DNA of 29,137 bases from a virus. This document shows, piece after piece, positions 1 through 20,214 of this stretch. Position numbers and translations under genes: made by a program. The stretch spans positions 1 to 29,137 of the IMG/VR virus record IMGVR_UViG_3300010885_025933; one strand, given 5' to 3'. The notes below the pieces were generated by a model that saw only the letters and a list, made by a program, of their open reading frames with translations, made no database searches and was not told where the DNA came from. The first letter of the stretch is position 1. Each line of letters starts with the position of its first letter.

Positions 1-2202
1 AGCGGCGGTGCAGGTAAGCCAGCCAAGCAGACGCCAAACAGAACGACTACTCGCGGCACGATTGCGACTTCCCCATCTAAGGTAAATGTCTCTGGAGGTG
101 CTGGATCACCTGCTGCACAGACATCAAATAGCCCGCTGACGCGAGCACGAATTAAGGAACTGCTCAATACGCCAAGAGTAGAAAGCACTGGTGGGCAGAT
201 TGCCACAGCGCCAGAAACGATCAATGCAACGAGCAAGGTTCCAGTAGTTCGTACGATTAAGCCGAACTTTGAGGCGCTTGATCTTGGTGAGCAACAGTCG
301 ATTAAGATGCTCAAGACCTCACTCGAAGGTCAGAACATCAATCCCAACGACAACGAAGAACTACTCCTACTCCAGGAGATCCTGGCTCGCAAGCAGTTGG
401 TTGAGCCAGAGCAGAACCGACTCCGTTCGATGTTCCGCCGAATGGACAACCTCTACCACCCAGAGACCATCACCCTTGGCGGTGCTGACCACTGGTCGGA
501 TGACCCAAGCGCACGACTATCTGGTCGCGCTCACGTCTCGGTAAACATCCATCACGCCTATGTTCAGATTCCAGCATCGATTCAGGCTGTTCGACCAGTC
601 ATCAACTACGTTCCAACTGGAACTGAAACTGCTGACCGAGAAGATGCTCAACTTCGAGAGAAGTTGTACTTCCGTTGGTGGGATGCTAACGAGATGGATC
701 TTGCGCACGAGCACGCTGCCCTACTGAAAGAACTCTATGGTCACACGGCAGCAAAGGTTTACTGGGATGAGAACGAGGGTGTCCCAAAAATCTCAATCAT
801 TGAGCGACCAGAAAACCTTTACCTAGGATTCTCTAACTCCGACTATAGTCGACTTGACTGGGCTTTGTATTGCTACGGTATGTCGCCACAGTCCATTAAA
901 GAAGATTATGGCATCGACATCATTCCAGTAAAGTCTGGAACTGAGTACTACCCATATACAACCCGTGGAACCCATGATGACCCAATTGGCAACATCTGGT
1001 CCAACACTTTTGACAGGAATCCACTCCGACGCGAGACCGCATATGAGCGTATGCAGGTTCGCGTCTACGACTATTGGTATAAGGTTCCTTCTGCTCCAGG
1101 AAAGCCACCAGTGGTATACAACGCCATCTTTGTCGGAAACACGCTGGTAAAGAATGACCCACACAAGGAGTATGCTGGGCAACTTCCATACGTACACCTT
1201 GCAAACGGCAAGATTCCTGGAAGCCCATACGGTAAGTCCGCACTCCACGATGCAGAGCAGATGCTTCGCGAAAAGGACGAGCGAGTCACCGCCATGGCAC
1301 AGATGATCCAGTCTGTTGTTGGCGGTCAGATGTGGCAGTTGGTTGGTCCAGATGCTCCTGATGAGGTTGCTCCTAACGCCCTACCAAAGCCAGGTCGTGT
1401 TGCAACTCCTGGTCCTGGCAACGAACTTCGTGCCATCCAGCCGTTTATTCCTAACTTCCAGATTGAAGAGTACATCAAGCGTATCGACCGTGAACTCACG
1501 GTTGCCACTGGATTGAATGACCTTCTGCTTGGTCTTGCTCCTGAGTCAGTTCTTGGTTCGTCACGAGCCATCGCTGCACTCATCGCAAACTACGAAGCAC
1601 GACTTGCCCCTAAGCGTAAGACGTTCTACACGTGGATGCGAAAGGTTTGGGAACTATCTGCCCGTATTTGGGAGATCAAGGACCCAGCCGTTGCTGAGAT
1701 CATTAACGGCGAATACCGAATTGAGATTGTTCCACCAGAGTTGACCCCACGCGATACTCTCGAACTTGCCTCTACGGCGATCAACTTGGTCCAGAACCGA
1801 GTATGGTCTGCTGAGCGCGCAATGGATCGAGTCGGCGTTGAAGATCCAGTTGGCGAGAAGGAACTCATCCGAAGTGAGCAGACTGACGCAACGCTCAACC
1901 CATCTGCTGTTGCAACCATGGCTAACGTCATGGGTATCTTCAAGCAGATGCAGGCACAGGATGCCCAGATGCAGGCTCAACAGCAGGGTCAGGGTCAGAC
2001 TCAGCCACAGGCTCCAGTTGATCAGGCTGCAATCCAGGCTCAGTTGGCTCAGCAGGGCGCACAGGCTCAGAATGCCGTACGCACCCTTCAGCAGCCGATT
2101 GCTGGCAACCAGTCATTAAATCAGCCAGAAAATCAGTCTCAGGTACCACAAGAGGCTCTCCCAGCGAACGCCTCACCACTAGTCCCTGGAGGTAACGCCT
2201 AA
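1..2202 (+). CDS. Phage portal protein (5' end cut by window edge)
   Basis: Dodecameric ring protein at the head vertex through which DNA is packaged and leaves; it binds terminase, scaffold and connector. The reading frame is open from base 1 with no stop, so the first Met at 307 is probably not the start: no Shine-Dalgarno precedes it and the upstream 102 codons read as a Ser/Thr/Gly/Pro linker followed by helix. The core has a conserved portal look, for example HYPETITLGG-like text near DNLYHPETITLGG, a Trp/Tyr-rich wing, and the helix run NDLLLGLAPESVLGSSRA followed by IAALIANYEARLAPKRKTF. The C-terminus (about 1950-2150) is Gln/Ala-rich low complexity. It ends TAATG, overlapping the next start by one base. 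Family assignment is from recalled sequence pattern, not a search; the position before scaffold and capsid supports it. Confidence 0.8.
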   Translation, partial: SGGAGKPAKQTPNRTTTRGTIATSPSKVNVSGGAGSPAAQTSNSPLTRARIKELLNTPRVESTGGQIATAPETINATSKVPVVRTIKPNFEALDLGEQQSIKMLKTSLEGQNINPNDNEELLLLQEILARKQLVEPEQNRLRSMFRRMDNLYHPETITLGGADHWSDDPSARLSGRAHVSVNIHHAYVQIPASIQAVRPVINYVPTGTETADREDAQLREKLYFRWWDANEMDLAHEHAALLKELYGHTAAKVYWDENEGVPKISIIERPENLYLGFSNSDYSRLDWALYCYGMSPQSIKEDYGIDIIPVKSGTEYYPYTTRGTHDDPIGNIWSNTFDRNPLRRETAYERMQVRVYDYWYKVPSAPGKPPVVYNAIFVGNTLVKNDPHKEYAGQLPYVHLANGKIPGSPYGKSALHDAEQMLREKDERVTAMAQMIQSVVGGQMWQLVGPDAPDEVAPNALPKPGRVATPGPGNELRAIQPFIPNFQIEEYIKRIDRELTVATGLNDLLLGLAPESVLGSSRAIAALIANYEARLAPKRKTFYTWMRKVWELSARIWEIKDPAVAEIINGEYRIEIVPPELTPRDTLELASTAINLVQNRVWSAERAMDRVGVEDPVGEKELIRSEQTDATLNPSAVATMANVMGIFKQMQAQDAQMQAQQQGQGQTQPQAPVDQAAIQAQLAQQGAQAQNAVRTLQQPIAGNQSLNQPENQSQVPQEALPANASPLVPGGNA

Positions 2203-4976
2203 TGGCTCGACGAGGTCGTTTCGGTAATCCAAGCGGCGGGTCGAACCTTGCGATTACCATTCAGAATATGTTGCGCCAGAAGAAGGCGCAAGAAGAGCAG
2301 TTGCTTCTTCAGCGATTCCGAAATGGTCAAGCAACGCTTGCTGAAGTCCAGTCGTTCTATAACGATTGGATTTCCAGTGCTGGATATTCTCCCGATAGCG
2401 TTGACTATAAGCAGATTCAGCAGAGCATTGAGGATGCAAAGAATCAGAATCTAATCTTCCGTTATAATGACCTGTCTGCTGAGTTTGACAGGACAAATGG
2501 TGCCAATTACAAAGATGTGATGGACTTCCTCAACAATGAGGCAACGACTAGCACCGATTCACAGAACCGACAGAGTTTTGAAGCGCAGAAGCAAAAGATT
2601 ACTACTGGCTATATTCAGGGAGCAAAGAGTCGCCTACTAAGCGGCGAAATTACTATTGATCAGTTTAAGGCTGATCTTGCTGCCAACTTTGATTCAGCAT
2701 TCCCACCTGGAGATGAGTCTGCAAAGACTGCTCGATATGATGCGCTAACTGCTGAGTACGATGCAATGATCAGCGTATTTAACAATCGGATTAAGGCTAA
2801 CCTACCAGGAGCCTATGCTGGTCTTCAGTCATTCATTAAGACATTCCAGAAAGACTTGGTTTCTTACGGTGTTAACACAAACAGCGAACTATACACTCGT
2901 TCGCAGGCTGATGCAGTAACGGCAGTATCTGGGGCAAATGCAGCAGCAGCAACTCCATCAGTAAACCGTGCAAACAAATCTTCCGATAAAATTGGTGCAA
3001 TCCTTGCAGAACTTCAAAAGACTGGTCAAACTGGTTTACCAGCATTAACCGACAAGGACATTAAAGAGGGAAAGACATACGGCGCTGGGGATCTTATGAA
3101 TGATCCAAGCATTGTTGCAAAGATTGTTCGGTTGGTAGATACTGGTGTTATTGCAATGCCGCAGGGTCTTATTGACATGGGCATTACTGATACTTCACAG
3201 TTGTCAAATACTGTCGATGGTCTTGTTCGATCATACTCAGCAAATGTCGTAAGCGCAGCAACTATCGATTCTCGTTATGCAACTGCCGCTATCGGTGCCA
3301 AGATTCTTGCTTCACAGGTTGGAGTAACAACGGGTGTCGATGAGTTTAGGGATGCTCTTGGTCAGTATACTGATGACATTCATGCAGCACAGGTTCGCGG
3401 AGATGACGTTGCTATGGGTCTTGCAATGCACGCATGGGGTGAGTACCTAAATCGACGAGGATCTAAGTACGGTACTCTGCCATCCGATAGCGCCCTAAAC
3501 CCACCTGGATCTGGATCATCTGGTGCTGGCATTCTTGACTCTATTGCAGCCAGCAGGGCAGCAATGGCTGGTCAGCCAACCAACGGCACCCCAGCAGAGA
3601 CATACTTTGGCATCGCCGCTCAGGTAACTACAAACGGGGCAATGACATTCCAAGACGCATATGCCAATGGAAGTTTTGCTGCTGTTATGAAATCCTACAA
3701 CGATCTTCTAACTGGTCGAGCAGTTCAGCACGTATCTTACGATAAATCACATCCAGAACTTGGTCCAAAGTATACAACTGAGGGCAGAAGTCCACTAACT
3801 GCTCAGGGTGGAATTTCTGGATCTGACGTATCTGCAAAGGGTGGTCTTATGACTATTATGACCCTTAAGGACCTTGGTGGAGGAAACTTCGCCCCTGTTG
3901 TTCAGCAGGTTGAAAATATCGGAGTGGTAAATATTGCCCAGCCTGGAAGCACTGCTGCTAAGACCTGGGGATATATCTATCGCATGGAGAGCGGTGCAAC
4001 AGTTTATGCTGAGACAAATGGAAACTTCTACGATGGAAGTCCATTTGGTATAGATCAACGACCAGATAGCAATGGCAATATGATTGTTAACACCAATCCA
4101 CTTCCAACCGCAGTTGCTTCAAAAACTGCACCAGCATTCGATGTTCAGTCAGTTCTTAAGATTGCTGGCAACGGAGACCCATCAAAGGCTACATTTGATA
4201 GCATTCGAAGTGTTGTTTCCTCTGCTAAAAAGCAGATTATCAACAACGGTCTTGCTGCACTAATTCCACCTGGAAACAATATTGATACAATGTTCGATGT
4301 TGTCAACAAGACAGCAGATGCTCTTGAGATGAAGCATATTAACGATACTGTATTCCAACTCAAGACTAAGGAGCGTTCTGGTTACGGAACAGTTGATACT
4401 AGCGAATATGCAAAACTTGCTGCTCGTGCTAACGAAATTACTTCTGGTGAGGGTTCTCTTCCAGCGGATCAGCGAACAAGTGCTGGATCACTCTGGAATC
4501 AGCAAGTACTTCCAAATAAGGATAAGTACCACGAAGTTCAGCCAGGTTTGTGGAAGTTGAAGCCAGAAGTTATTGATGCAAAGAATAAAGTATCTCAAGG
4601 ATTCCAGGGTCTTGCAAATAATATCATTAACTTCGGTACACTTGGAACACCATGGGGTGGCGCAAAAACCAATACTGGTGGATACATTAATACGTTTGAC
4701 TCATATGGTCGACCACTTAATGACGTTATTGATCTACGTACTCCACAAGTTAAGGCTGCCCAAGATGCTGCGACCTCTAAAGTGTATAGCAATCTTGGTA
4801 ATGCCATCATCAACGGTACATTCGAATTCCCAACAGTTAAGTCCCCTACATTAGTTACAAGCCAGGGAAACCAGAACCTAAACAATCAGGCTCTGGAGGG
4901 ATTGCATTCTGCTTCAACGGCAGCAGCAATCGTTGCACCAACAAATACGTCCAAGATCAACATTGGGGGTAGGTAA
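2202..4976 (+). CDS. Large virion-associated protein, 924 aa, function unknown
   Basis: No family recognised. The ATG overlaps the portal stop (TAATG) and a GGAGG lies about ten bases upstream. The first 250 residues are charged and predicted helical, rich in Gln, Lys and Asp; the middle holds Gly/Ser/Ala/Pro-rich linkers (around residues 425-470), then a beta-looking stretch with many Gly, Asn and Thr (about 520-640), then another helical and Asn-rich tail. No signal peptide or clear membrane span is visible. It ends in TAATG with the giant gene, so portal, this gene and the giant gene are translationally coupled. The position suggests an internal or ejected virion protein that works with its 2136-residue neighbour; this is inference. 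Codon choice is AT-richer than in the capsid gene. Confidence 0.75.
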   Translation: MARRGRFGNPSGGSNLAITIQNMLRQKKAQEEQLLLQRFRNGQATLAEVQSFYNDWISSAGYSPDSVDYKQIQQSIEDAKNQNLIFRYNDLSAEFDRTNGANYKDVMDFLNNEATTSTDSQNRQSFEAQKQKITTGYIQGAKSRLLSGEITIDQFKADLAANFDSAFPPGDESAKTARYDALTAEYDAMISVFNNRIKANLPGAYAGLQSFIKTFQKDLVSYGVNTNSELYTRSQADAVTAVSGANAAAATPSVNRANKSSDKIGAILAELQKTGQTGLPALTDKDIKEGKTYGAGDLMNDPSIVAKIVRLVDTGVIAMPQGLIDMGITDTSQLSNTVDGLVRSYSANVVSAATIDSRYATAAIGAKILASQVGVTTGVDEFRDALGQYTDDIHAAQVRGDDVAMGLAMHAWGEYLNRRGSKYGTLPSDSALNPPGSGSSGAGILDSIAASRAAMAGQPTNGTPAETYFGIAAQVTTNGAMTFQDAYANGSFAAVMKSYNDLLTGRAVQHVSYDKSHPELGPKYTTEGRSPLTAQGGISGSDVSAKGGLMTIMTLKDLGGGNFAPVVQQVENIGVVNIAQPGSTAAKTWGYIYRMESGATVYAETNGNFYDGSPFGIDQRPDSNGNMIVNTNPLPTAVASKTAPAFDVQSVLKIAGNGDPSKATFDSIRSVVSSAKKQIINNGLAALIPPGNNIDTMFDVVNKTADALEMKHINDTVFQLKTKERSGYGTVDTSEYAKLAARANEITSGEGSLPADQRTSAGSLWNQQVLPNKDKYHEVQPGLWKLKPEVIDAKNKVSQGFQGLANNIINFGTLGTPWGGAKTNTGGYINTFDSYGRPLNDVIDLRTPQVKAAQDAATSKVYSNLGNAIINGTFEFPTVKSPTLVTSQGNQNLNNQALEGLHSASTAAAIVAPTNTSKINIGGR

Positions 4977-7900
4977 TGCCATTAATTTTTTCTAAGGGTA
5001 CGCAGACCACGACTAGTGGTGCTGATCAGATTCCAGTTAATGACAATGCTGGTGGTGGTCAGGCTTATTCAAGCCTTGGAAAAATTAATATTGATCTTAC
5101 CCAGCCTCAGAACTCAGTTGCTAACACTGCTACTGGATTTGCTGAGGGTCTTCAGGCTGTTGGCAAAGGTATTGTTAATGTTGCAGAAAACCTTCCAATC
5201 GTTGGTCTTGCAGCCAAGCCAATTATTGGAGCCATCGGAGCAGTTGCGGATGCAACCGTCGGCAACGTTGTCAACGCTGTTGCCCAAAGCCCAGTCGGTA
5301 AAGGAATCAATGACGTTGCTGGTGCTGCTGCTGGTATTGCTTTTGCACCAATTGATCTTGGTCTAAAAGCACTCACTGCTCCAGTAAACTATATTGGTCA
5401 GAGGGTTGCTGCTGCACGACTTCAAAATACTATCGAGCGAAAGAACGACGCTGTCTCCTTTATTTTTGGTAATGCCCCTTTAAGTGCTGCAAACATGGTG
5501 AAAGACGGAAAGACCATTGATCAGGTTGCAGAATCAATGGCGACACAGTTTGGAACTGGCGCAGAAGAAATGGGTGCATTTAGCAGCAATGGCTTTGCTA
5601 ACCTTATTTTTAATATTGCACTAGACCCAGTTACCTGGTTTGGTGGAGAATTGCTAAAGCCTATCGAAATTGGTGCAGAGGCTGCAAAACTTTCAGAGGT
5701 TGCCACTGAGGTATACCGAACATCTGCAAAGGCTGCTCTTGCCGATGCTGCTCGCTATAAGGACTTGGCAAAGGTTGCCGCTGGATCCGCTGCGAAGAAG
5801 GAACTCAAGGACCTTGCTGAGAAGCGCGTTGCTGAGGCTGCCGTCCAGACTCGCAATGCTGACTTCGTTGAGAAATGGGCTTGGGCTGGTGAAGTCTACA
5901 AGAACTCTTTCGGTAAAGTTAAGAATCCTTTAACAAAACTACTTGGTGCACCAATTGGTAAGGTCCTTGCCAACCGATTCTTTGAGGTTGCTTCGAGCGC
6001 CAAGGTTGGAGAGCACCTTGATGTCATTAGCAAGGTTCTCGGTAAGGACGCAGTAGACGCCGCCGTTGGGAATGCCGCACTAACACTATCAAACGCTACC
6101 AAGGCTGCCACCGCAGATATTGCAGTAAACTCACGTCGAGCAATCTTTGATAAGACTGGTGAGACAGTTGCAGCCACAGTTCATGCGGCAATCACTTCTG
6201 GGACAACTGGTCGCGCACTTGAGGACCTTATTGTTGGAGATAGCGGAGTAACTCTTAAGGAACTTCTCAAGTCTGGTGGCATTGCAGAGAACGATGTAAC
6301 AAAAGTATTGAAGTCTTTCGAGAGCGGCTACAACAAGGATCTTCGCCCGTTTTTTGAGCACAGCGACGTAAAGAAGTCCATGCAGTTTATTGGTGATGCT
6401 TTTGCCAAGGCTGATGTTCGTGCAAACCCAGACTTCTACCTACAGGTTGGAGACTTCCTTGGAAAGTCAAACATCAAACTTGGCGTTGATGCCGCCGTCA
6501 ACTTGCTGAATACCGCCAAGATGGATCTCATCCGCTTTGCCGAAGATCCAGCAATTGGCGTTCAGTATCTTTCTCGCCTACTTCAGCACGGATATGAATT
6601 GGCAGCAGATCAGGCTGATCTGATTGCCCAAACAACGTTCGATGGGGCAAAGGGTGACGTTCGTGGTCTAATCGACGTGCTTGAGTTCCAGCGTTCTGCT
6701 TCATTTGGAAAGTCAATGCGAACCATTGCTGACATTAAGAATGGTTTCCCAATGACATTTGCAGAGGTTCCAGAGACCATTGCCAGAAGGGCTGCAATTG
6801 CTTCTTCATTCTTTGGATCACTTCCGAAGAAAGAGGCTCAGGCTCTTGCCACTACGTTCGACTCCATCGCTGCTGCAACGGCTCATCGACTTGGTCAAAC
6901 TGTAGAACAGTATTACGAAAAGCACGTGTTTGGTCTCTACGGAAATGCAGAGGACAAGGCAGTTCAACTTGCTGATGAGTTGTTCAAAACAACTGGGGCA
7001 GCAAAGGCAGCATTCGAAAACATCAATGCAGAACAGGTACTCGAAAAGGCTCAGAGCATCCAGCCAACCGAACGCATGAAGGCTGCTGGTCTTGGCGGTC
7101 AATTGCCAGTTCAGGTTGTTGACTTTGGTGGAGATCTTCCATTTGCCCTGCCAGGAGGTCTTGCTGCCCTCGAGGATCCAGCGCCATTTAACTTCATCGA
7201 TGAGGCTATTATCGAGGCTCAGGCTACTAACAAGATTCCTATGGATGTTCGCGTGAAGATCTATAAGAAAATCTGGGCGAATAAGGCTATCAATATGCAG
7301 GATCCAATTGCTGTTGCTAACAGAGTGATGTTTGCGACTCTTTCTGGCAATGCTGGTCTTCTTCCAAATGCTGGTGTCTATGCACTTCTGCGAGTTCGAA
7401 CCCCTGAAGAACTTGCTCAGTTTGCTGCTAAGTGGGGAGATCTTGCCCGATCAGATATTAAGGCAAATGAACTTGGACTACAGTACAAGAAGGAGTTCTT
7501 CGGTGAGGGACCAAAGAACTTCTCAACCTCACAGGCTGGAGTTACTGCCGAAGTTGCTCAGTCAGAAAATAACATTGGCTACGCAATTAGGACGCTTGTA
7601 TTCGCCCATGACAATCCAAAGTGGTTTACCCTTCAGCCTGGCGAAACCATGGAGAAGTTTGCTGATCGACTAACTGGCATCACTGGTGTCGGTCAGAAGG
7701 TTGGAACATTTGCAGCAGAGTTGATGAATCCAGGTCAGTTGAGCCGTGGTGCCTATGACCTTCACATGAGCGATGCTGTCGTGAAGTTTGCTCGAGAGAA
7801 CAATCTTCTTGATCAACTTATTAAGGATCTTGAATTAACTCCTGGTGGCAAAGAGTTTGCAAAGCAGATTCAAACAAAGGGAGTATCTGCTCCAGCATAC

Positions 7901-10900
7901 GAGAGCAAGAAACTTGTTGGTGGATGGAAGGAAAATGTTGCCTCTGATGTAGCGGCAATGATCGATCAACTTCCAGACTGGATTGCTGGAAAAGATAAGA
8001 ATGCTAAGATTTTTGAGGGCAGTGCTGGAGAAGTGATTGCCAAATGGATTGACAGGATTGCCGCATCATACGATGCTGAGGCAATTGCAAAGGGCTTGCC
8101 AAATCCAGGAGTAAGCGAACTTACTGGGGCACAGAAGCAGTGGTTCATCTGGGACCTTCAGCGTGGCAATATCTCACCACATAGTTTTGTAAACACTGGT
8201 GTTGAGCAGATGGCTAAGGCTGAGCCTTCTCAAATCGGCGATGCCATGGCTGCAATTAAGCAAGCAAGTTCTGGAAAGACGTTCGCTGGAGTTGATCCAA
8301 ACATTATTGCTGAGTTCTATGCCAAGACTGGGGATAAGGTACTTGGCGTAACTCAATTTGACAAGACTGGTCGAGCAACGATTAAATTGTTTGAGGGGGC
8401 GGACGTCACAACCGCAATCCACGAAATTGGTCATTTTGCTCGTCGACAACTGGATCAAGAGAATCATGCGCTTCTGGAGTCAGCCTATGGAATTACTGGT
8501 CCATGGACAAAGGTTGATGAAGAGCGTTTTGCTAATGACTTTGTTCTTTACCTTCGAAGCGGAAAGGCTCCAGTCAAGGAGTTGAACGATACGTTCTCGA
8601 AGATTCGCGAGTTCATCGCTAACGTTTGGGACTCAGTCAAGTCAAGTTCTGATGTCAACGTTAAGCCAGAAGTTCGCAAGGTATTTGACAGCCTTTTTGT
8701 TACTAACGGTCCATCACTGACTCAGCCAACGGCAGACCTCTGGTCGCGAGTTACCCTCCTTAGCGACCGTCACCTTACCCAGGGTGTTCGAGATTCCATC
8801 TTGAATGAGGTGGACAATCTTCTTGGTAACGGCGATGGAAGCATTAAGATTACCGATCCAGCCCAGTCTGTTGTTGAGTCAGATGCTGTTATTGATGCTG
8901 CCCCAATCGCCGCCAATGACGGTAAGACATTCAATCCAGTACGCGGGACAGAACGAGTACCTGGAGATGGTCCTGGATTTGCTGTTGCCCTTAAATCAAC
9001 AGCCCCGATTGTTGGTCAGGAACGACTTGCCCTTCTTGCAAGCCCACAGAAGCAGAAGGAATTCCTCAATCTCTTTATCCGCAAGAACTACGAGATCCTT
9101 AAGCGTGCCAATATGAACATTGGTATCTATGACAATGGTAAAGAACTATGGATTGAATTGTCCAAGATGCATCAGGTTGCCCAAGATGCAATCGATGCTG
9201 GCATCAAGAACGGCGAAGAGTCGTTGTTCTCATTCCACCCAGATGCCACTGACGTCATCTATCTTGACACCGAGAAGGGTCGAGCAGCAGCCGCTGCCGC
9301 AGGCAAGAAGGTTGTTCAAAAGGCAGAAGACATCCCAAATCTAGAGAACATTGTTCGACCTACCTTGACTGAGGCTGAGAAGAACTCCAAGGTTAAGAGC
9401 ATCGCCGATATGCTTGTTCAGAAGTATGACGATATTGCTCGTATTTACTATAATAAGGGTGCAGATCCTATGGAGATCATTCAGTTCCTCCAGGATCACC
9501 CAGAGATCATTACTCGAGAACTTAGCACAATTGAACGTAAGTTCCTGCCAGAGGCATTTAAGAATGCTGAGGAGCAGTTGAACCTTGCTGGTTATCGATA
9601 TGGTATCGCACCAAAGAATGGCATCATCGAGCGTACGGCTACGGTAACAGATAGTTTTGGTCGCAGCCGACAGGCACAGATTGTGTCACCGTACACGGAT
9701 CTTCTGGACACGACTGCTATTAATAAGTTTGACGCCGCACTTCCAAGCAAGAATCTTCGACCAACTACGCTCGATAAGATTGTAGACAAGTTGACTCGAA
9801 CTTACGGAAGCGACGTCACTCGAAACAACTATATCCAACGACTCACTGCTGACCTGATGAGCAAGGCTCCACTCAGCCAGCGAGATGTCATGACAATTGT
9901 CAACCGAGTTGGCAATCTTGCATCAACCAAGGAGACTACGGTTAAGGGTCTTTGGTTTGAGAAGGACCAGATCGAAAAAATTTTTGTCGACGTTATGGGT
10001 GAGAAAAACTATATTGCGTACGCCGATAAGAATGATCCACTCCGAGATATTGTCAATGCTGCTGCTGGAGACTATGGCATTGTCGGTCTTGCTCCTGGGT
10101 TCAGTGGTCGAGTAAAGGCTTGGAAGCCAATCATGGGCGTAATTACCGACCGAGCCTACCCAGTCGCACGCTTCGGTAAACTTAACCCAATTTTCTACAA
10201 TCTCCTTGAGCCAATCGAAACTAAAATGAGCAAGTTTGTCTTTGATATTCGTTCAGAAGTTGCCAATGAAACGCTTCAGGATCGCGAATCGGCAGTTCTT
10301 CAGCGTATGTTTATTGACCAGCGTTCAGCCAACCGAGAGTTGAGCGAAGGGTTATTCCGAGATCAAGAGGCAAATATCAAGGCAACAATTACGGCAGTTA
10401 ATGAATCGCCTGGTCTTAAGAATGACATTGCTCGAAAGATTCAACAGATTGGTTTAATTAAAGATCTCAAGTTTGCAATTCTTGATCCACTTAAATATAA
10501 GTTAACTGCTCGAGACTTTACGGCAAGCACCTTGGCTATTCGAGAGTTTGATCAGCGAATGGCTGAGTATGCACCAGAGGCTTGGGCACAACTCAAGGCA
10601 TGGGGTCTTGGAGATGCTCGAACCGTGGTCAATCGAATGCTCGAAGACTACATGATTCAGTCGAACCCAGAGGCGATGGCTCGTGCCCTTAAGGATGGTT
10701 TACCAGAGTCGGTTGGTCTTTGGACCCAGGCTCTTACCCAGACTGGTCTTGAAGCCAGCAAGGCTCAAGAGGTCGCCGCTGCTGCTTACGGAATCTTCCA
10801 GGACTCAATGATTCGGGCGACTAAGACCGCAGACCGCTACCAATACTTCTCGCAAGAGCGAACCTGGTTTGAGCGAAGCATCAATCACCCATTCCTTGGT

Positions 10901-11386
10901 ATCTATCCTTACTCGTACATGACACAGAAGGCGATCCCAATGATGTTGACCTTGATGTTCAAGCCACGTATTGCTGGTCGAATTCGACCTGGTCTTGGCA
11001 TCGTGAACTACCTTCGACTGAAGGAATATCTTGCCAATGATTTGGCAACTAACAATGACTTCTGGTCTGGTCTAGCAAAAGATCGAACGCTATGGTATGC
11101 TGTTAACATCATGCTGCCAGCAACCCCAGAGAACATGGGGTTTTCAGCGCCTTCCTTCTTCCGCAAGGGATTCCTACAGCCAGCCGCCCAGGGAACCCCA
11201 ATGGACCTCAATCAATTATCCAAGATCCCAACCTATGTTGGCGATTCAATTATGCGCGGAACAGTCATTGGTCAGGGCGCATCCCTAATCCAGGCTGCAA
11301 GCGGTGTCGGCAACTCGTTTGACACGCAAATTCAACAGAGTGCCGATGGCATTCAGACCGAGATTAATCGGTTCTTCCTCCCATAA
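4976..11386 (+). CDS. Giant 2136-aa virion protein with zinc-metalloprotease (HEIGH) domain
   Basis: A multidomain protein of the kind called polyvalent or ejection proteins in phages, which are packaged and enter the cell with the DNA. Residues about 45-135 are Gly/Ala-rich and hydrophobic with amphipathic segments, as in proteins that insert in membranes. A zincin motif HEIGH sits at residues 1149-1153, followed about 30 residues later by EERFANDF (Glu 1182/1183), which fits a gluzincin third ligand. Residues about 1380-1432 (from NMNIGIYDNGKELWIELS) resemble a small conserved block recalled from other actinophage giant proteins. The C-terminal third is helical and ends with an aromatic, Pro-rich block near 1970-2000 (ERSINHPFLGIYPYSYM). 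ATG overlaps the previous stop. No frameshift seen over 6.4 kb. Protease activity and ejection are inferred; a tape-measure role is less likely given the position before scaffold. Confidence 0.8.
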   Translation: MPLIFSKGTQTTTSGADQIPVNDNAGGGQAYSSLGKINIDLTQPQNSVANTATGFAEGLQAVGKGIVNVAENLPIVGLAAKPIIGAIGAVADATVGNVVNAVAQSPVGKGINDVAGAAAGIAFAPIDLGLKALTAPVNYIGQRVAAARLQNTIERKNDAVSFIFGNAPLSAANMVKDGKTIDQVAESMATQFGTGAEEMGAFSSNGFANLIFNIALDPVTWFGGELLKPIEIGAEAAKLSEVATEVYRTSAKAALADAARYKDLAKVAAGSAAKKELKDLAEKRVAEAAVQTRNADFVEKWAWAGEVYKNSFGKVKNPLTKLLGAPIGKVLANRFFEVASSAKVGEHLDVISKVLGKDAVDAAVGNAALTLSNATKAATADIAVNSRRAIFDKTGETVAATVHAAITSGTTGRALEDLIVGDSGVTLKELLKSGGIAENDVTKVLKSFESGYNKDLRPFFEHSDVKKSMQFIGDAFAKADVRANPDFYLQVGDFLGKSNIKLGVDAAVNLLNTAKMDLIRFAEDPAIGVQYLSRLLQHGYELAADQADLIAQTTFDGAKGDVRGLIDVLEFQRSASFGKSMRTIADIKNGFPMTFAEVPETIARRAAIASSFFGSLPKKEAQALATTFDSIAAATAHRLGQTVEQYYEKHVFGLYGNAEDKAVQLADELFKTTGAAKAAFENINAEQVLEKAQSIQPTERMKAAGLGGQLPVQVVDFGGDLPFALPGGLAALEDPAPFNFIDEAIIEAQATNKIPMDVRVKIYKKIWANKAINMQDPIAVANRVMFATLSGNAGLLPNAGVYALLRVRTPEELAQFAAKWGDLARSDIKANELGLQYKKEFFGEGPKNFSTSQAGVTAEVAQSENNIGYAIRTLVFAHDNPKWFTLQPGETMEKFADRLTGITGVGQKVGTFAAELMNPGQLSRGAYDLHMSDAVVKFARENNLLDQLIKDLELTPGGKEFAKQIQTKGVSAPAYESKKLVGGWKENVASDVAAMIDQLPDWIAGKDKNAKIFEGSAGEVIAKWIDRIAASYDAEAIAKGLPNPGVSELTGAQKQWFIWDLQRGNISPHSFVNTGVEQMAKAEPSQIGDAMAAIKQASSGKTFAGVDPNIIAEFYAKTGDKVLGVTQFDKTGRATIKLFEGADVTTAIHEIGHFARRQLDQENHALLESAYGITGPWTKVDEERFANDFVLYLRSGKAPVKELNDTFSKIREFIANVWDSVKSSSDVNVKPEVRKVFDSLFVTNGPSLTQPTADLWSRVTLLSDRHLTQGVRDSILNEVDNLLGNGDGSIKITDPAQSVVESDAVIDAAPIAANDGKTFNPVRGTERVPGDGPGFAVALKSTAPIVGQERLALLASPQKQKEFLNLFIRKNYEILKRANMNIGIYDNGKELWIELSKMHQVAQDAIDAGIKNGEESLFSFHPDATDVIYLDTEKGRAAAAAAGKKVVQKAEDIPNLENIVRPTLTEAEKNSKVKSIADMLVQKYDDIARIYYNKGADPMEIIQFLQDHPEIITRELSTIERKFLPEAFKNAEEQLNLAGYRYGIAPKNGIIERTATVTDSFGRSRQAQIVSPYTDLLDTTAINKFDAALPSKNLRPTTLDKIVDKLTRTYGSDVTRNNYIQRLTADLMSKAPLSQRDVMTIVNRVGNLASTKETTVKGLWFEKDQIEKIFVDVMGEKNYIAYADKNDPLRDIVNAAAGDYGIVGLAPGFSGRVKAWKPIMGVITDRAYPVARFGKLNPIFYNLLEPIETKMSKFVFDIRSEVANETLQDRESAVLQRMFIDQRSANRELSEGLFRDQEANIKATITAVNESPGLKNDIARKIQQIGLIKDLKFAILDPLKYKLTARDFTASTLAIREFDQRMAEYAPEAWAQLKAWGLGDARTVVNRMLEDYMIQSNPEAMARALKDGLPESVGLWTQALTQTGLEASKAQEVAAAAYGIFQDSMIRATKTADRYQYFSQERTWFERSINHPFLGIYPYSYMTQKAIPMMLTLMFKPRIAGRIRPGLGIVNYLRLKEYLANDLATNNDFWSGLAKDRTLWYAVNIMLPATPENMGFSAPSFFRKGFLQPAAQGTPMDLNQLSKIPTYVGDSIMRGTVIGQGASLIQAASGVGNSFDTQIQQSADGIQTEINRFFLP

Positions 11387-11434: not shown

Positions 11435-11986
11435 GTGGCTGATGAAGTCGTAAACAGCGCCGAGACACAGTCGCTCGATACAACCGCTGAGGTTGCTGGA
11501 GCCACTGAGAACGAGGCGGATGTTACCACTTGGAAGAAGCGACTAGCAGGCAAGGATCAGGCGCTCACCGCTACGAAGAAGGAACTCGATGAGATCCGAG
11601 CACGTGCGGATGAACTTTCTAAGTGGAAGGCTGAGCAGGAGCAGGCATCGATGACAGAGGTGGAGAAGGCGCAAGCCAAGATCCGCGATCTCGAAGCGAA
11701 GGCTGCGGCTGCTGAGACTGCTGCAAAGGAAGAGCGCCTAGCGCGGGAATATCCGCTCGCTTATCAATTCCTTAAGGACACAGGCGGTCTCGACGAGATC
11801 TCCCGCGCTGCTGCGCTCGAGAACTTTGTTCGTAATGCTGCCTCTGTTACTACGGAAAACGAGCCGAATCCAGCGCCAGTGGATCTAAACAATGCACGAC
11901 GGGCAACCGCCGCGCCAGATATTAAGCCCACGTCTTCCAGTATCTCAGAAAAACTGAAGGCGTTGGGGAATCCATTCGCTGATTAA
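11435..11986 (+). CDS. Capsid scaffolding protein
   Basis: Internal assembly chaperone that directs capsid subunits into a procapsid and then leaves. The 183 residues are highly charged, Ala/Glu/Lys-rich and predicted coiled coil (about residues 30-105, for example KWKAEQEQASMTEVEKAQAK), with a disordered N-terminus and a Pro/Ser-rich region before a short helical C-terminus (ISEKLKALGNPFAD), the usual scaffold layout. The gene is directly before the major capsid gene. The start is GTG at 11435, with AGGAG seven bases upstream; the ATG at 11430 is out of frame and stops after seven codons. Codon choice (GC-ending, CGC/CGT for Arg) moves toward that of the capsid gene, in line with high expression. 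Confidence 0.8.
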   Translation: MADEVVNSAETQSLDTTAEVAGATENEADVTTWKKRLAGKDQALTATKKELDEIRARADELSKWKAEQEQASMTEVEKAQAKIRDLEAKAAAAETAAKEERLAREYPLAYQFLKDTGGLDEISRAAALENFVRNAASVTTENEPNPAPVDLNNARRATAAPDIKPTSSSISEKLKALGNPFAD

Positions 11987-12000
11987 GAAGGAGTAGCACA

Positions 12001-12972
12001 ATGGCTACCACGCTTACCAGTACGACGAACTTTTCCGATCTCGTCACGCAGTTGGTTTCTGCTCGTGCCGAAGAGGAACTGCGCGCTCGTGCAGTCCATG
12101 CGATGCCAGGGATGTATGTCCCAGCACGCTTTATCAAGGGTACTAACACCCTTCGTTACGCTCGTTACGCTGACCTTGCGGTCAACGTCACGCCGCTGAC
12201 GGAAGGCGCACCACCAGTGGATCAGGCTCTGACGATTTCGTCCGAGTTCTTCACGGCTGTGCAGTACGGTCAGACCGTCGCAATTTCGGATCTCGCGAAC
12301 ATCGATTCGCCACATGATCTGATCTCGATTGCCGCTGAGCGAGTTGCCTATCAGGCGACCCGTTCGATGGACAACATCGTTCGCGACAACATTCACAGCA
12401 CGGCTTTGACGTCGGCTGTCTGGGGCGCAACCGCTTCGGGCACGCTTACCCAGAACGCTGCAAACAGCGCAGTCGCTGCTGCTGGTATCTTCAATGGTAC
12501 GTTCGTAAAGCAGACCGTTGCTCGCCTCAAGGGTGCCAACGTTCCAGCCTTTGCTGACGGTTACTATCGCTGCATTATCCATCCTTCACAGGAGTACGAC
12601 TTGATCTCCGATACGGCTGTCAACGGCTGGATCGAGGCTCGCAAGTACGTGGACAACACCAACCTGCTTACGGGCGAGATTGGTCAGTTCGCTGGTGTTC
12701 GCTTCATCGTGTCTTCGGACGCCAAGGTCTATACGACCGCTGGCGCTTCGTCAGGCAACGTGTATGCCGCGACGTTCCTTGGTCCTGACGCCTACGCAAT
12801 TGGCGACAGCCAGACCCTCCAGTCGTACTTCGTTGCGCCTGGTGGAGACCACACCGACCCACTCGCTCAGAAGGCGTTGGTCGGTTACAAGATGCGCTTC
12901 GGCTCCCTCCTCCTTGACGAGGCAGGCGCTCGCTATCGCATCGTGAAGACCCAGGCTACGGTTTCGGTCTAA
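12001..12972 (+). CDS. Major capsid protein (HK97-fold, N4-gp56-like)
   Basis: Main shell protein of the head, 323 residues, within the usual range for HK97-fold capsids. A GAAGGAG lies 8 bases before the ATG. Recognisable pattern: N-terminal helix SDLVTQLVSARAEEELRARA, then VTPLTEGAPP and a stretch EFFTAVQYGQTVAISDLANI typical of this capsid group, a long spine helix (ERVAYQATRSMDNIVRDNI), and a C-terminal beta region (YKMRFGSLLLDEAGARYRIV). It follows the scaffold gene and is followed by strong tandem hairpins. Arg codons are almost all CGC/CGT and codons mostly end in C, unlike the CGA-rich portal and giant genes. No separate protease gene is seen nearby. Family is from recalled pattern. 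Confidence 0.88.
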   Translation: MATTLTSTTNFSDLVTQLVSARAEEELRARAVHAMPGMYVPARFIKGTNTLRYARYADLAVNVTPLTEGAPPVDQALTISSEFFTAVQYGQTVAISDLANIDSPHDLISIAAERVAYQATRSMDNIVRDNIHSTALTSAVWGATASGTLTQNAANSAVAAAGIFNGTFVKQTVARLKGANVPAFADGYYRCIIHPSQEYDLISDTAVNGWIEARKYVDNTNLLTGEIGQFAGVRFIVSSDAKVYTTAGASSGNVYAATFLGPDAYAIGDSQTLQSYFVAPGGDHTDPLAQKALVGYKMRFGSLLLDEAGARYRIVKTQATVSV

Positions 12973-13035: not shown

Positions 13036-13095
13036 CAACGTAGAGGCACGCCAGACGAGCAAGGAGCCTCGAAAAGGTCAGGGTGGTACCTAAAT

Positions 13096-13108
13096 ACCCC
13101 CAAGGGGT
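13096..13108 (+). promoter_or_regulatory. Hairpin covering the glycosyltransferase ribosome-binding site
   Basis: ACCCC (13096-13100) pairs with GGGGT (13104-13108) around a 3-base loop; the 3' arm is the Shine-Dalgarno of the gene starting at 13113. The same ACCC could instead pair with GGGT at 13081-13084, so two exclusive folds exist. This would allow translation control, but the stems are short. Confidence 0.3.
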
Positions 13109-13112
13109 CGAT

Positions 13113-14348
13113 ATGCTGAATGTACTTGTTTGGGGACACGTCGAAGACGGTCCATGTGCCTACTTCCGTGGGCACCAGTTCACTGAAGAACTCAAAAAGC
13201 ACGGCGTAAACTACAAGGGATTGAACCGCGTAGACTTCAAGGTCAAGCCTGGCGGCGAGAAGATGATGATGCCAGAGGCGTTCAACAAGGGTCTCATTGA
13301 CTTCGACACTACGGACGTAGACTGGGCAGACGTCATTGTGTTCCGCAGGTACTACAACACCACACTATCCTGTGCCCAAGAAGAGCGTTGCCCCTTCATT
13401 ACGTTCTCCTACGAAGAGGCAATGAAGCATGAGCACGGCTGGAAAGAGCGAGACCTCATCACCCGTCTCCTCTGGAACACCTTTGAGTTTGCCAACCACG
13501 GCAAGGCTTTAGTCTACGAAACAGACGATGACCATTTTACGATTGCCCCTTGGAACGGTTACTCAAAAGACGCAATTGCCGAACTGCCAATGATCGAGGC
13601 AATGGCAAAGCGTGCCGACCTAGTCACCACCTCAACTCAGGTCATCGCTAACAGGTACTCACGGTTTAACGACAATGTCCGAGTTATCCGCAATGCGGTT
13701 GACCCAGAACTATACAAGACGGACACCACTAGACCAGATACCAACACTCGGATGGTCTATTACGGAAGTACCGCACGTATGCGTGACTACGCTGGCTACC
13801 CAGATAGCAGGCGCAAACTTCAGGGAGGGTACGCAGCAAAGGCAATTGCTGACTTCCCCAAGGAGATTCGAAAGATCTTTATTGGGGTAAACCCAGGAAC
13901 TGCCGAGCAAGTCATGCCGTACTTTGATGAGGGCGTGGAGTATATCGAAGGTATCCAGAAGTTTTGCAAGACGCTTGCCGATACCCACCCAGATTTTGGT
14001 CTTGCTCCCCTCATGGGTGATGACTTTGACCGAGCCAAGTCGGAACTCCACTGGCTTGAATACTCCATGGTTGGAGCAGCATTCATCGGTGAACGAATGC
14101 GCGGAGCAGATTCCCCTTACGGAGTTGTCCGAGATGGAGTTGATGGGCTGCTTGCCCGTGGTCGACAAGAGTGGCATGACGCAGTAAAGAAGTTAGTTCG
14201 GAACCCAGGGTTGCGCGAAGAGTTGGCTCACAACGCTCGCGAGCGGGTCCTGAAGGAATACCACTATAAGGATCGAGCAAAGGAATGGGCTGACGCCTTT
14301 AAATGGGCAGCCGAGAATAAGGGTAAAGGAGCCAGAGTAGCCTCATGA
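13113..14348 (+). CDS. Glycosyltransferase, GT-B fold (GT4-like)
   Basis: Transfers a sugar from a nucleotide-sugar donor to an acceptor. The N-terminal Rossmann half begins MLNVLVWGHVEDGPCAYFRG, with ALVYETDDDHF in the middle (the DDD phage GT pattern) and ADLVTTSTQVIANRYSRF before VRVIRNAVDPELY; the C-terminal donor half has GLAPLMGDDFDRAKSELHWL and RDGVDGLLARGRQEWHDAVK, as in GT4 enzymes. The ATG at 13113 with AAGGGG upstream is preferred over GTG at 13083, which has no ribosome site and adds ten non-conserved residues. The gene sits between capsid and connector, where no assembly enzyme is needed, so it may modify the capsid or another virion protein. It shares GGGGTCGATATG at its start with the RmlD-like gene at 19369. 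Acceptor and sugar are unknown. Confidence 0.82.
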   Translation: MLNVLVWGHVEDGPCAYFRGHQFTEELKKHGVNYKGLNRVDFKVKPGGEKMMMPEAFNKGLIDFDTTDVDWADVIVFRRYYNTTLSCAQEERCPFITFSYEEAMKHEHGWKERDLITRLLWNTFEFANHGKALVYETDDDHFTIAPWNGYSKDAIAELPMIEAMAKRADLVTTSTQVIANRYSRFNDNVRVIRNAVDPELYKTDTTRPDTNTRMVYYGSTARMRDYAGYPDSRRKLQGGYAAKAIADFPKEIRKIFIGVNPGTAEQVMPYFDEGVEYIEGIQKFCKTLADTHPDFGLAPLMGDDFDRAKSELHWLEYSMVGAAFIGERMRGADSPYGVVRDGVDGLLARGRQEWHDAVKKLVRNPGLREELAHNARERVLKEYHYKDRAKEWADAFKWAAENKGKGARVAS

Positions 14349-15019: not shown

Positions 15020-15919
15020 ATGGACTTTAACCAAGCGATTAAGATCTCTACTGGTTCTGCTTCCTCGGCGTTCCTTAACCTGAATAGCATTACCTCAAGC
15101 CCACCTGCCAACAAGGCATTCAATGGGTATGTAACGGAGAACGTCTCGTTTGCCAACGCTCGTGTCGGTGGGTTTATTGACCCACTGGCGCAGCGTGATG
15201 GCGCTGAGGCTGACATTGCCTTGATGGGCGTCCGATCTATCCAGTTGCTTGTCCAGGTATATGGCTCTTCCTCTGGCGCGTTCTACGATAATATCAATAC
15301 AATCAACGGTGCGCTTCAACCGTACCCAGCGTTTGCCTCTTCTACCGATGGCTTCAGGGCGCTAGACTTTTACGAGCCAACCATCTCTTACTCAACCTAT
15401 ACAGCGACTGGCATCCCTGTTCGACTTATGGTTCGACCGACCGCCCTACCAGTCTACAACATCAACAACAATATGCTTACCCCGCGATCCATCACCAATG
15501 GTTTGGACCGTGGTCTAGTTGCTCGGTTTTCGGTTAACCTGATTGCCAAAGACCCACGCAAGATTTCCCAGAGCGCAGTCAGCGTCTCATTCTCCAGCGC
15601 AAGTGCGACCAAGGCTATCCTCAATAACGGCAACTACAACGCCTACCCATCGTTCACGTTGACCAGTACTTCCGCACAGACTGTAAAAATCACTGGATCT
15701 GGGTTTACTACTGGCATTGCCCTCACGGCAAACAGCGCCACTGTAGTTGATTCTACCCTTCGAACCGTTACGGTTGGCGGAACAATGAACATGGCAGCAG
15801 TAACTAGCGTAACAACTTCGTTCCCAGTATTCCCATCTGGAACTAACAACGTTACCATATCCCCTGGAACCTGGACTGGTCTAACGGTAAGTTGTTCTTA
15901 CAATGAGGCGTGGATATGA
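15020..15919 (+). CDS. Distal tail protein, Dit-like
   Basis: A tail-tip hub protein onto which the receptor-binding parts attach. 299 residues with the Dit pattern: N-terminal beta domain with ALMGVRSIQLLVQVYGSS, a mid stretch FRALDFYEPTISYSTY then GIPVRLMVRPTALPVYN, then LVARFSVNLIAKDPRKI, a linker with NNGNYNAYPSFTLTST, and a C-terminal beta-sandwich (TVKITGSGF to the end). The order linker-then-galectin-like domain is typical for Dit. It begins three bases after the connector stop and ends in ATGA with the next tail gene. No signal or membrane segment. Known Dit proteins are about 250-300 residues. Confidence 0.65.
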   Translation: MDFNQAIKISTGSASSAFLNLNSITSSPPANKAFNGYVTENVSFANARVGGFIDPLAQRDGAEADIALMGVRSIQLLVQVYGSSSGAFYDNINTINGALQPYPAFASSTDGFRALDFYEPTISYSTYTATGIPVRLMVRPTALPVYNINNNMLTPRSITNGLDRGLVARFSVNLIAKDPRKISQSAVSVSFSSASATKAILNNGNYNAYPSFTLTSTSAQTVKITGSGFTTGIALTANSATVVDSTLRTVTVGGTMNMAAVTSVTTSFPVFPSGTNNVTISPGTWTGLTVSCSYNEAWI

Positions 15920-17964
15920 GCGATCAGCCAAAATTTCGACTAATCCTCTGGAGCATCTCCTCAACTGGCTGGAGGGGAACCCAAAAGGCTGTTGTCTACA
16001 ATGCTAAGAACCTTGGCGTTGAGGAGCATGCTAATGATGTCGGTTCTGCATTCTGGACACTAGACAACGACCACCCACAGATCTCAGAGTTTGTTCCGCT
16101 TGCTCGGCACTACGAGATTAGCAGGTGGTCTGCTCCTAGAAACCGCTGGGAGTTTGTTGGCGCTGGAATGCTCAACGATTATAATGTTACTGAGTACCAA
16201 ACGACATTCCAGGGTATGGATTACAAGGCTGTATTGAATCAGACCTTTACTCCGCTTAGCGGAATGACTACTGCAAATGCAGGTGTTACCACTACCGTAA
16301 CTCCGTCAACTACCGCTAGTACTTTTTCGTCAAATAGTGTTTTTGCTTTAAACGTAAGCACTGCCACAACAGCAGTACGATATTTGAATAGTTCCTCTAT
16401 TGACGTGGATGGTCCTTACGCTTATGCGTCACCTGGAAAATTAAGAAAACTTACTCTTGATCAATTCAATAACCTCCAACCTGGAACTGGCTATTACATT
16501 AATGATGCTGGCGGAAATTTTAGCGGTCCAACATATTATGAAACCCCTAAAATTGAATTGAACTGGGACGGAGTTTGGAAGAGCAGCACTACCAGCGGGT
16601 TTCCTGTTCCAGTCCCAATGCTATTTTTGGTTCTTTGTAGTCCACCAGCCTTAAAAGATTATGGAACATTACCAATCAATCCACAAACTATTCTTACCGA
16701 AGACCAAGATGTAATGAATGGTCCGACAACTATTTACAATGGCGCAAGATGGACATACCAACTTAATCTATTTCCCCAAGAATTAAAAACTCTTGTAGAA
16801 AAAGAGGAAGGGGTTGGTTCTTTTACTGGGAAAGATTACGTTGACGGCTTGGTTGACTACGGAAATAACGAGACTGATATTGCCTGCCTGAGACCAGGGG
16901 TATCATACTCTTTTCAAGTTTATGCGGCAATTTATAGGGCGTCTGGAAATGGCATTTGGTATCGTACCCCAAAGGGTGTAGTAAGCGGATCTACAAATAC
17001 GGCAGCAACGACTTTTGGCGAGCCAGCAAATGTTACCCTTGGTCAATCCGACGAAGATGTTGCCGCCACCATCAAAAGATCTTTTAACAACGCGGCGTTA
17101 GTTGACCCTTATTCAAGGGTTAGATATGCGTCGTTGTCAATTTCTGGAAGTACAGCAACAACGATAAAAACATATTCTAATGGCGAACCAATGATGCAGT
17201 TTATTGCTAGTGTTTGCGATATTGAGATGGGGGCAAAAACTGACGGATCAAAGGTAGTATTTGGTATTGACAAACCAACAAATGGTGGAACTTACACTGG
17301 AAATTTTAAATTAAATACAAGTGTTTCAAGTGCAGCAACCACCGCGTTTGCACTTCGATACCCAGAAAGCGTTAAGTCATTTTCATTCACCCCTGGATAT
17401 AGCAGGGTTCGAAATGATATTACCCTAATCCCAACAACATTGTATCTTTCTGGCTCAAGCGGTCAGAACGTTGGCGGAACTAGTCTTATTGGGGCAACTG
17501 CGAGCGACAGCGCAAGCATTGCATCAAATGGTCGCATCCCGCTAATTATTACTCGTGCTGGATTGGTAGATGAGAAGGCTGCCCAGAACGAAGCCAATAG
17601 GTTACTTGCTACCTACAAGCCAGCCAATACCAAGCAGGCAAACATTAGGGTAACGCTCAATGGCGTAGACTTGTGGAATGGCTGGGACCTTGGCGACTCA
17701 GTTCGCTTAACAATCAACCGTGGTCTTGCCGTTGTCAATGAAGCATTCGTCATCACTGGAGTCCGTTGGTTTGGAGAGATGGATGGTCACGAGCGAGTCG
17801 AACTTGACCTTGTCCAGGGTACTGCATTTGCCGCCGCCTATGCTAACCCAGCACCTCCGCCAGCCACCCCAGAAGCAGCCTCAATCTATGTACCACCCCA
17901 GTCAGCCATTCCAGTGGCTCAAGGGTTCCACAATGAAGAGCAAGGAGTTAAGAAGTTCTCATGA
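15916..17964 (+). CDS. Minor tail protein (Tal / ReqiPepy6 Gp37-like) with inserted domains
   Basis: Probable tail-tip protein carrying receptor-binding or hub functions. Residues 1-110 (FRLILWSISSTGWRG, then YEISRWSAPRNRWEFVGAGM) and about 545-650 (EKAAQNEANRLLATYKPANT, GWDLGDSVRLTINRG) match the conserved ends of Gp37-like tail proteins. Between them, about residues 128-440, lies an extra block with a fibronectin-III-like signature (LRPGVSYSFQVYAAIY). This block is AT-richer and uses AGA for Arg, unlike the ends. The Pro/Ala-rich C-terminus follows. ATG 15916 is chosen because it makes ATGA with the upstream stop and has GAGG at a good distance; GTG 15910 does not. Likely to decide host range. 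Confidence 0.68.
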   Translation: MSDQPKFRLILWSISSTGWRGTQKAVVYNAKNLGVEEHANDVGSAFWTLDNDHPQISEFVPLARHYEISRWSAPRNRWEFVGAGMLNDYNVTEYQTTFQGMDYKAVLNQTFTPLSGMTTANAGVTTTVTPSTTASTFSSNSVFALNVSTATTAVRYLNSSSIDVDGPYAYASPGKLRKLTLDQFNNLQPGTGYYINDAGGNFSGPTYYETPKIELNWDGVWKSSTTSGFPVPVPMLFLVLCSPPALKDYGTLPINPQTILTEDQDVMNGPTTIYNGARWTYQLNLFPQELKTLVEKEEGVGSFTGKDYVDGLVDYGNNETDIACLRPGVSYSFQVYAAIYRASGNGIWYRTPKGVVSGSTNTAATTFGEPANVTLGQSDEDVAATIKRSFNNAALVDPYSRVRYASLSISGSTATTIKTYSNGEPMMQFIASVCDIEMGAKTDGSKVVFGIDKPTNGGTYTGNFKLNTSVSSAATTAFALRYPESVKSFSFTPGYSRVRNDITLIPTTLYLSGSSGQNVGGTSLIGATASDSASIASNGRIPLIITRAGLVDEKAAQNEANRLLATYKPANTKQANIRVTLNGVDLWNGWDLGDSVRLTINRGLAVVNEAFVITGVRWFGEMDGHERVELDLVQGTAFAAAYANPAPPPATPEAASIYVPPQSAIPVAQGFHNEEQGVKKFS

Positions 17965-19368: not shown

Positions 19369-20214
19369 ATGTTAGGGGTCGTAGGAACAGGGCAGGTAGC
19401 CCAACACGTTATCGCGCACCTTAAGGATCATGGGATTCTTCATAATGTCTTTACGCGCTCGCCTATCTCCGAGGATAGTGTGGGCGCTTCTGTTTTCTAT
19501 ACGCATGAGAATCTTCCCGACCTACTCAAGGAACACAAGATCACAGCGGTGATCAATTGTTCCGCCTTGCGAGACATCCAGCGTTGTGAAGGTGAGCCGC
19601 GCCAGGCATGGGGAGCCAACGTCGGTCTCCCTTCCATCATTGGTGACCAGGTCAAGCAGGTGTATCTCAGTACGGATTACGTCTTTGATCGCAACCTACA
19701 GAACCGAGTGCTCGACGAGACTGCCGTCTCGGAGGGTGCTCTTACTGTTTATGGCGCAACAAAACTTCAGGGGGAAGACGCAACGCTTTCGCGAGACGGG
19801 ATCGTTGCTAGGATCAGTAGCCCATGGGGACTCTATCCTTCCCCCCTGAAGGCGCACTTTGTGGACTTTGCTTCCATGAACACACATGATCTTGACTTGC
19901 CAACTGACCAGTGGTTTAGCCCAACATACTTGCCAGACATCGCTGGCACGTTGGTCGAGTTGGCTACTGGTCCGCAGCACTATGGGACCTATCACTTGGT
20001 CAATACGGGAAAGACTAACTGGCAATCGTTTGCCATGTTGGCGCGACAATTGAATCACAATAAAAAGAAGACAACTGGTTCCGAAAGAAACGACAAGACG
20101 CGACCAACGAATGGTGCGCTAATCAATACTCGCCTGCCAAAGTTCCGTCACTGGATTACAGCGATGGAAGAATACTTCAAGGGAAAACTAGCAGAGGAAG
20201 GATACACACGATGA
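19369..20214 (+). CDS. RmlD-like dTDP-4-dehydrorhamnose reductase (SDR)
   Basis: Reduces the 4-keto group of a dTDP-6-deoxy-hexulose, last step to dTDP-rhamnose or a relative. 281 residues, normal for RmlD. The N-terminal nucleotide motif is GVVGTGQVAQHV; the family tag STDYVFD is at residues 101-107; the SDR catalytic pair is Y128 and K132 in YGATKLQGE; VARISSPWGLY follows. ATG has AGGGGG five bases upstream, and the start shares GGGGTCGATATG with the glycosyltransferase at 13113. It ends in ATGA with the next SDR gene, so both are coupled. RmlC-like is at 23817; RmlA and RmlB are not in the window, so the host or other phage genes must supply the substrate. The exact sugar product is inferred. 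Confidence 0.8.
   Translation: MLGVVGTGQVAQHVIAHLKDHGILHNVFTRSPISEDSVGASVFYTHENLPDLLKEHKITAVINCSALRDIQRCEGEPRQAWGANVGLPSIIGDQVKQVYLSTDYVFDRNLQNRVLDETAVSEGALTVYGATKLQGEDATLSRDGIVARISSPWGLYPSPLKAHFVDFASMNTHDLDLPTDQWFSPTYLPDIAGTLVELATGPQHYGTYHLVNTGKTNWQSFAMLARQLNHNKKKTTGSERNDKTRPTNGALINTRLPKFRHWITAMEEYFKGKLAEEGYTR

Follow-up and report, generated by a model that had tools for sequence, protein, structure and literature searches.

A giant zincin-bearing protein in the virion gene block of an uncultured virus, proposed to be an ejection protein of a short-tailed phage

Introduction

The question raised by this locus is what a virus does with a protein of 2136 residues that is encoded in its virion gene block and carries a HEIGH motif. 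The locus lies in a 29,137-base stretch of viral DNA, analysed here as a whole (the window), and an earlier note had read it as encoding a giant multidomain virion protein that is ejected on infection and bears a gluzincin-type protease. Zincins were described in 2017 as the commonest domain of the giant, injected "polyvalent" phage proteins (Iyer 2017, PMC5512222), and the polymerase of phage N4, too, has an HExxH domain. We found no substrate or activity reported for the zincin domains of giant injected phage proteins.

The giant gene and its homologues

Positions 4976-11386 (forward strand) form a single uninterrupted ORF of 2136 codons, open throughout as the earlier note had stated, and the frame recurs intact, with 100% identity, in a second contig (L002). 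Besides this identical copy, homologues with 38-45% identity, some full-length and some partial, occur on nine uncultured viral contigs, two of the nine being near-identical to others in the same set; the gene assignment rests on the open frame, these homologous contigs and the alignment of the full-length homologues. Comparison with the homologue in L023 gives identities of 0.58, 0.67 and 0.36 at codon positions 1, 2 and 3, and since third positions diverge most, the protein is under selection. The bacterial genomes searched yielded no relative of the family. When compared with one complete relative, the capsid protein is 91% identical, the portal 78%, the giant protein 41% and the product of the preceding gene, ORF2, 31%, making ORF2 the fastest-diverging among the virion-block proteins compared. 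The giant protein and ORF2 thus diverge far faster than capsid and portal, a behaviour shared by the tail tip.

The first 150 residues of the giant protein contain 31% Gly+Ala and sparse charges, in keeping with the Gly/Ala-rich N-terminus described earlier, but the membrane-like character attributed to this region is modest, with one moderately hydrophobic stretch at about residues 73-93 (5192-5254, forward strand) that has a mean hydropathy of 1.5-1.84 in nine of ten homologues. The aromatic C-terminal block is evident, aromatics making up 14% of residues 1951-2100. A small capsid chain of the VP4 type at residues 56-98 was considered and rejected, the PDB profile matches (E 0.15-0.24) being at chance level.

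Pfam searches with eight homologues detected no second catalytic or effector domain in the chain, and Pfam and PHROG searches with the same number of homologues gave no match to an RNA polymerase domain; an RNA polymerase or other catalytic domain outside the zincin was rejected, there being no Pfam, PHROG or PDB sequence match. An AlphaFold2 model of residues 940-2136, built on 9 sequences and having a mean pLDDT of 51, includes an alpha/beta region at about residues 1255-1545 (8738-9610, forward strand) with pLDDT mostly 65-86, for which family and fold searches returned no match; in this low-confidence model the C-terminal half is predicted to be mostly helical. Foldseek gave no significant match for the model, and VIA-align gave weak helical matches only. 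Residues 1618-1701 (9827-10078) of the model resemble the helical subdomain at the C-terminus of argininosuccinate lyase (Z 6.5 over 75 residues, 3.2 A, 21% identity), a likeness that may reflect a common helical arrangement.

The zincin domain

The HEIGH motif occupies residues 1149-1153, and the Glu that had been placed about 30 residues on is E1183, 30 residues past H1153. Shuffled versions of the protein also produce such motifs (HExxH in 32 of 5000 shuffles, and HExxH with a Glu at a downstream distance of 20-40 residues in 98 of 20000), so the case for the site is made by conservation. H1149, E1150, H1153 and E1183 are invariant in 14 of 14 aligned domains, half of the rows being phages found by plain BLAST, in agreement with the gluzincin-type site proposed. 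The same four residues agree in a wider alignment of 69 domains, but since most of the extra rows had been retrieved with patterns that include portions of the motif, we did not count the wider alignment as independent proof.

The domain, assigned to residues 1097-1268 (8264-8779, forward strand) from the invariant residues, profile matches and the core of the AlphaFold2 model, recurs in the giant proteins of phages BPP-1 (Bbp10), UFJF_PfDIW6, AF, CP2, Jess A, Carin1 and vir555 and is present in hundreds of viral contigs. A profile of the giant-protein family finds giant proteins in nine reference phage genomes, with significance only around the zincin, and phage records match the giant protein in the zincin stretch alone. 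Some relatives have HExxxGH in place of HExxH in domains that are otherwise alignable (L054, L057, L059, L061, L066, L068, L069, L070, L073, L074 and L081); this is the variant that Iyer et al. had described in polyvalent proteins (PMC5512222). In some close relatives of the zincin, other parts of the chain hold domains of effector type (ART-PolyVal, RelA/SpoT, helicase). AF gp16 (L038) and CP2 ORF24 (L039) each show an extra HExxH upstream of the conserved zincin, at residues 807 and 926, respectively, and in Rhodobacteraceae phage LS06-2018-MD07 (L011) the zincin-bearing frame, annotated as a methyltransferase, spans at least 3120 residues and crosses the record start.

Structure prediction, which the earlier note had suggested as a check, agreed with a zincin in its local arrangement and gave no significant match to a solved structure. 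The AlphaFold2 model of the zincin (253 residues) comprises a two-stranded hairpin and two site helices, 111-124 with HExxH and 146-162 with E1183, the core and both site helices having pLDDT of about 80-95; as modelled, this combination of hairpin, HExxH helix and Glu helix is the arrangement expected for zincins. Searched against the PDB, the 253-residue model matched no solved structure significantly, the Z of 4.3 with PPEP-3 lying within noise, and its significant matches among viral models are all large phage proteins, some of them annotated as polyvalent or ART-PolyVal.

The sequence comparisons taken together show the HExxH segment to be a genuine domain of wide distribution. The invariance of H1149, E1150, H1153 and E1183 makes it likely that the giant protein carries an active gluzincin, and, for the catalytic Glu, it speaks against a site that is structural only. 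Moreover, an invariant site across distant giant proteins, the remainder of which is not recognisably similar, points to strong selection on the site. The conserved site also names the residues, and the culturable relatives, in which the function of the zincin can be tested.

Gene neighbourhood and tail type

The gene order in the window is portal, ORF2, giant gene, scaffold, major capsid, glycosyltransferase, a 223-aa ORF, a Dit-like gene and a 684-aa ORF, and the relatives checked share the neighbours of the giant gene. On the forward strand, the portal gene (307-2202) was assigned by phrog_156 (E 8.9e-17) and a weak P22_portal match, the scaffold-like gene (11435-11986) by phrog_172 (E 2.7e-4) and the major capsid gene (12001-12972) by phrog_1357 (E 6.5e-42), with relatives in Bacillus and Streptomyces phages. 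These assignments bear out the location of the giant multidomain protein in a virion gene block. Its reported position between portal and scaffold stands as well, weakly so for the scaffold, but that description had passed over the 924-aa ORF2 (2202-4976, forward strand), which intervenes after the portal gene and the stop codon of which overlaps the start of the giant gene. Neither family searches nor phage records gave a match for ORF2, which we propose to be a second ejection protein. Further downstream, the glycosyltransferase gene (13083-14348) is followed by the 223-aa ORF, presumably a head-tail adaptor, and by the gene for a Dit-like tail component (15020-15919, forward strand; PF22768 E 2.6e-6, above cutoff; phrog_202), directly after which comes the 684-aa ORF (15910-17964), which we take to be a tail hub.

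Two 41-kb relatives appear to be complete or nearly so, as one gene is split across contig ends, and one of them has a 21-base end overlap. No tape-measure gene is present in either, in accord with the missing tape measure noted earlier, and both also lack a tail-tube gene in the stretch from capsid to Dit, which in the window and its relatives holds the glycosyltransferase and one 212-223-aa ORF only. The absence of tape-measure and tail-tube genes fits a short tail. The siphovirus-type Dit-like protein and 684-aa ORF, accompanied by neither tail-tube nor tape-measure gene, perhaps denote a short tail built on long-tail tip proteins.

In BPP-1, UFJF_PfDIW6, AF, CP2, Jess A, Carin1, vir555 and a Vibrio phage, the giant gene lies directly after a 543-758-aa gene that is often annotated as lysozyme or endolysin and is preceded by genes for tail and small internal virion proteins, a placement equivalent to that of gp15-gp16 in T7. 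An ORF (median 663 aa) abuts the giant gene upstream in 63 of the 65 viral loci with a complete 5' end, and ORF2 stands in the position of the abutting upstream gene of the reference phages.

Proposed role of the giant protein

We consider it reasonably probable that the giant protein is one of the inner proteins that a short-tailed phage packs into its virion and ejects, and its zincin is probably active. Together with ORF2 it would fill the role of T7 gp15/gp16 or N4 gp51/gp50: the chain would be stored in the head near the portal, pass through the tail and refold in the host envelope, where its weakly hydrophobic N-terminus may touch the inner membrane. H1149, H1153 and E1183 would bind zinc, with E1150 as the general base, and the zincin would most likely cut the giant protein itself or the partner ejected with it, either within the particle or during entry, in preference to a dedicated host target; self-processing is no less likely, and probably more so, than the cutting of a host protein. 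The analysis demonstrates the gene, the domain and its conservation, the genomic setting and the relatives, whereas we infer that the protein is packaged and ejected, touches a membrane, binds zinc and is active, and what it cuts. Several lines of evidence favour an ejection protein. The four site residues are invariant in 14 domains, half of which were obtained by BLAST and not by motif, and the zincin occurs in nine reference giant proteins adjoining internal virion or lysozyme-type genes. The gene lies in a virion block with portal, scaffold and capsid, in a lineage whose (nearly) complete members have neither tape measure nor tail tube. Finally, the giant protein and ORF2 diverge fast, and an ORF abuts the giant gene in nearly all loci (63/65).

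Published work on polyvalent virion proteins also argues for an ejection protein. Zincins occur in such proteins, including P1 DdrB, which is processed before packaging (PMC5512222), and JC1 gp69, an unrelated giant polyvalent protein, was detected in purified podophage virions (PMC9144972). BcepIL02 gp70, a relative of JC1 gp69, has its own HExxH motif and gave no match to the zincin profile. A literature search found no published virion proteome of a BPP-1-type giant protein. Several findings count against an ejection protein: neither T7 gp15/gp16 nor a solved protease was matched in sequence or fold, the relatives of the capsid belong to phages that infect Gram-positive bacteria, and the N4 virion RNA polymerase (vRNAP) is packaged uncut despite its HExxH domain.

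The giant protein is a new family within the known class of giant zincin-bearing phage proteins. Like BPP-1 Bbp10 and its podophage relatives (phrog_9880), proteins of 2000-2850 aa, it has a homologous zincin in mid-chain, and just as the BPP-1-type giant gene directly follows an internal virion or lysozyme-type gene, the present one follows the abutting ORF2. It differs from them in having no recognisable sequence similarity outside the zincin, in a gene order that places it between portal and scaffold, and in being known from uncultured viruses only. In 2013 the Bbp10 zincin had already served as a seed for the CLCA_X family of zincins (PMC3650047). With the polyvalent proteins that bear a zincin-like MPTase (PMC5512222) it shares a giant multidomain build, a location near virion genes and a domain with HExxH and Glu, and among its zincin relatives are chains with the HExxxH variant and with other polyvalent domains; unlike in those proteins, no further known domain was recognised in the chain by Pfam in eight homologues.

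The likeness to the N4 virion polymerase "but with protease instead", drawn in the earlier note, fails because N4 vRNAP carries an HExxH domain of its own (PMC5512222, PMC12633501), which we located at residue 2228 of gp50, and because zincins are so common in polyvalent proteins; the comparison is better put as protease without the polymerase. The present protein and gp50 are alike in being giant chains with an HExxH domain, the ejection of which together with partners is presumed by analogy, and they differ in the RNA polymerase domain of gp50, absent here. Homology between the two HExxH domains is only suggestive at the sequence level, since the 10.3 bits that the zincin profile gives on a 420-aa slice of gp50 centred on HExxH contrast with a negative total for the long chain and with 4-5 bits for unrelated N4 frames. 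As with T7 gp15/gp16, the giant protein and ORF2 are an adjacent pair of large, fast-evolving proteins in a short-tail gene set, but they have a zincin and no transglycosylase, and the gene order is another; no sequence or fold match to gp15/gp16 was found, the models being weak.

In line with one proposal of the earlier note, the zincin could instead be an injected effector that enters the cell and cleaves a particular host protein at the very start of infection, for example one involved in defence or located in the envelope; in our estimate this is rather unlikely. Iyer et al. named a host-cutting effector as one option (PMC5512222), and the ART-PolyVal, RelA/SpoT and helicase domains of some close zincin relatives and the invariant catalytic Glu would suit it; however, Pfam recognised no effector domain in the giant protein, and self-processing requires fewer assumptions. 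Host cutting would be a counter-defence or entry step of a kind for which we found no report in any podophage ejection protein. The site might instead be structural or inactive and the giant protein a pure channel or DNA-packing ejection protein, as the unprocessed packaging of N4 vRNAP with its HExxH domain (PMC5512222) and the lack of a significant match between the zincin model and a solved protease would allow, but E1150, which is dispensable for zinc binding, is invariant across distant proteins otherwise not recognisably similar, and we regard this explanation as quite improbable.

The size of the protein, the mostly helical C-terminal half of its low-confidence model and the Dit-like protein at 15020-15919 could also suit a tape measure, if the virus were long-tailed and its genes unusually ordered. 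We consider this highly improbable, and rejected it on gene position and the absent tail-tube genes: the giant gene lies between portal and scaffold and not ahead of Dit, the capsid-Dit interval of the window and its relatives offers only the glycosyltransferase and the 212-223-aa ORF, and the zincin relatives adjoin internal virion proteins.

Host and other genes of the window

A capsid relative was searched for in bacterial genomes and not found, and neither TerL nor the presumed hub had a match in phage records. The capsid resembles those of phages with Gram-positive hosts, among which phi29-like phages are reported to lack T7-style ejection proteins (PMC8954989); this resemblance counts somewhat against a T7-style periplasmic tunnel.

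Elsewhere in the window, RmlD-like, epimerase-like and dTDP-sugar isomerase genes (19369-21170 and 23796-24353) form, with the glycosyltransferase at 13083-14348, a sugar-modification gene set. On the reverse strand, positions 28079-28501 encode a protein of 140 aa that begins like a secretion signal and gives a weak, below-cutoff match to the double-psi beta-barrel family PF03330 (E 0.0023).
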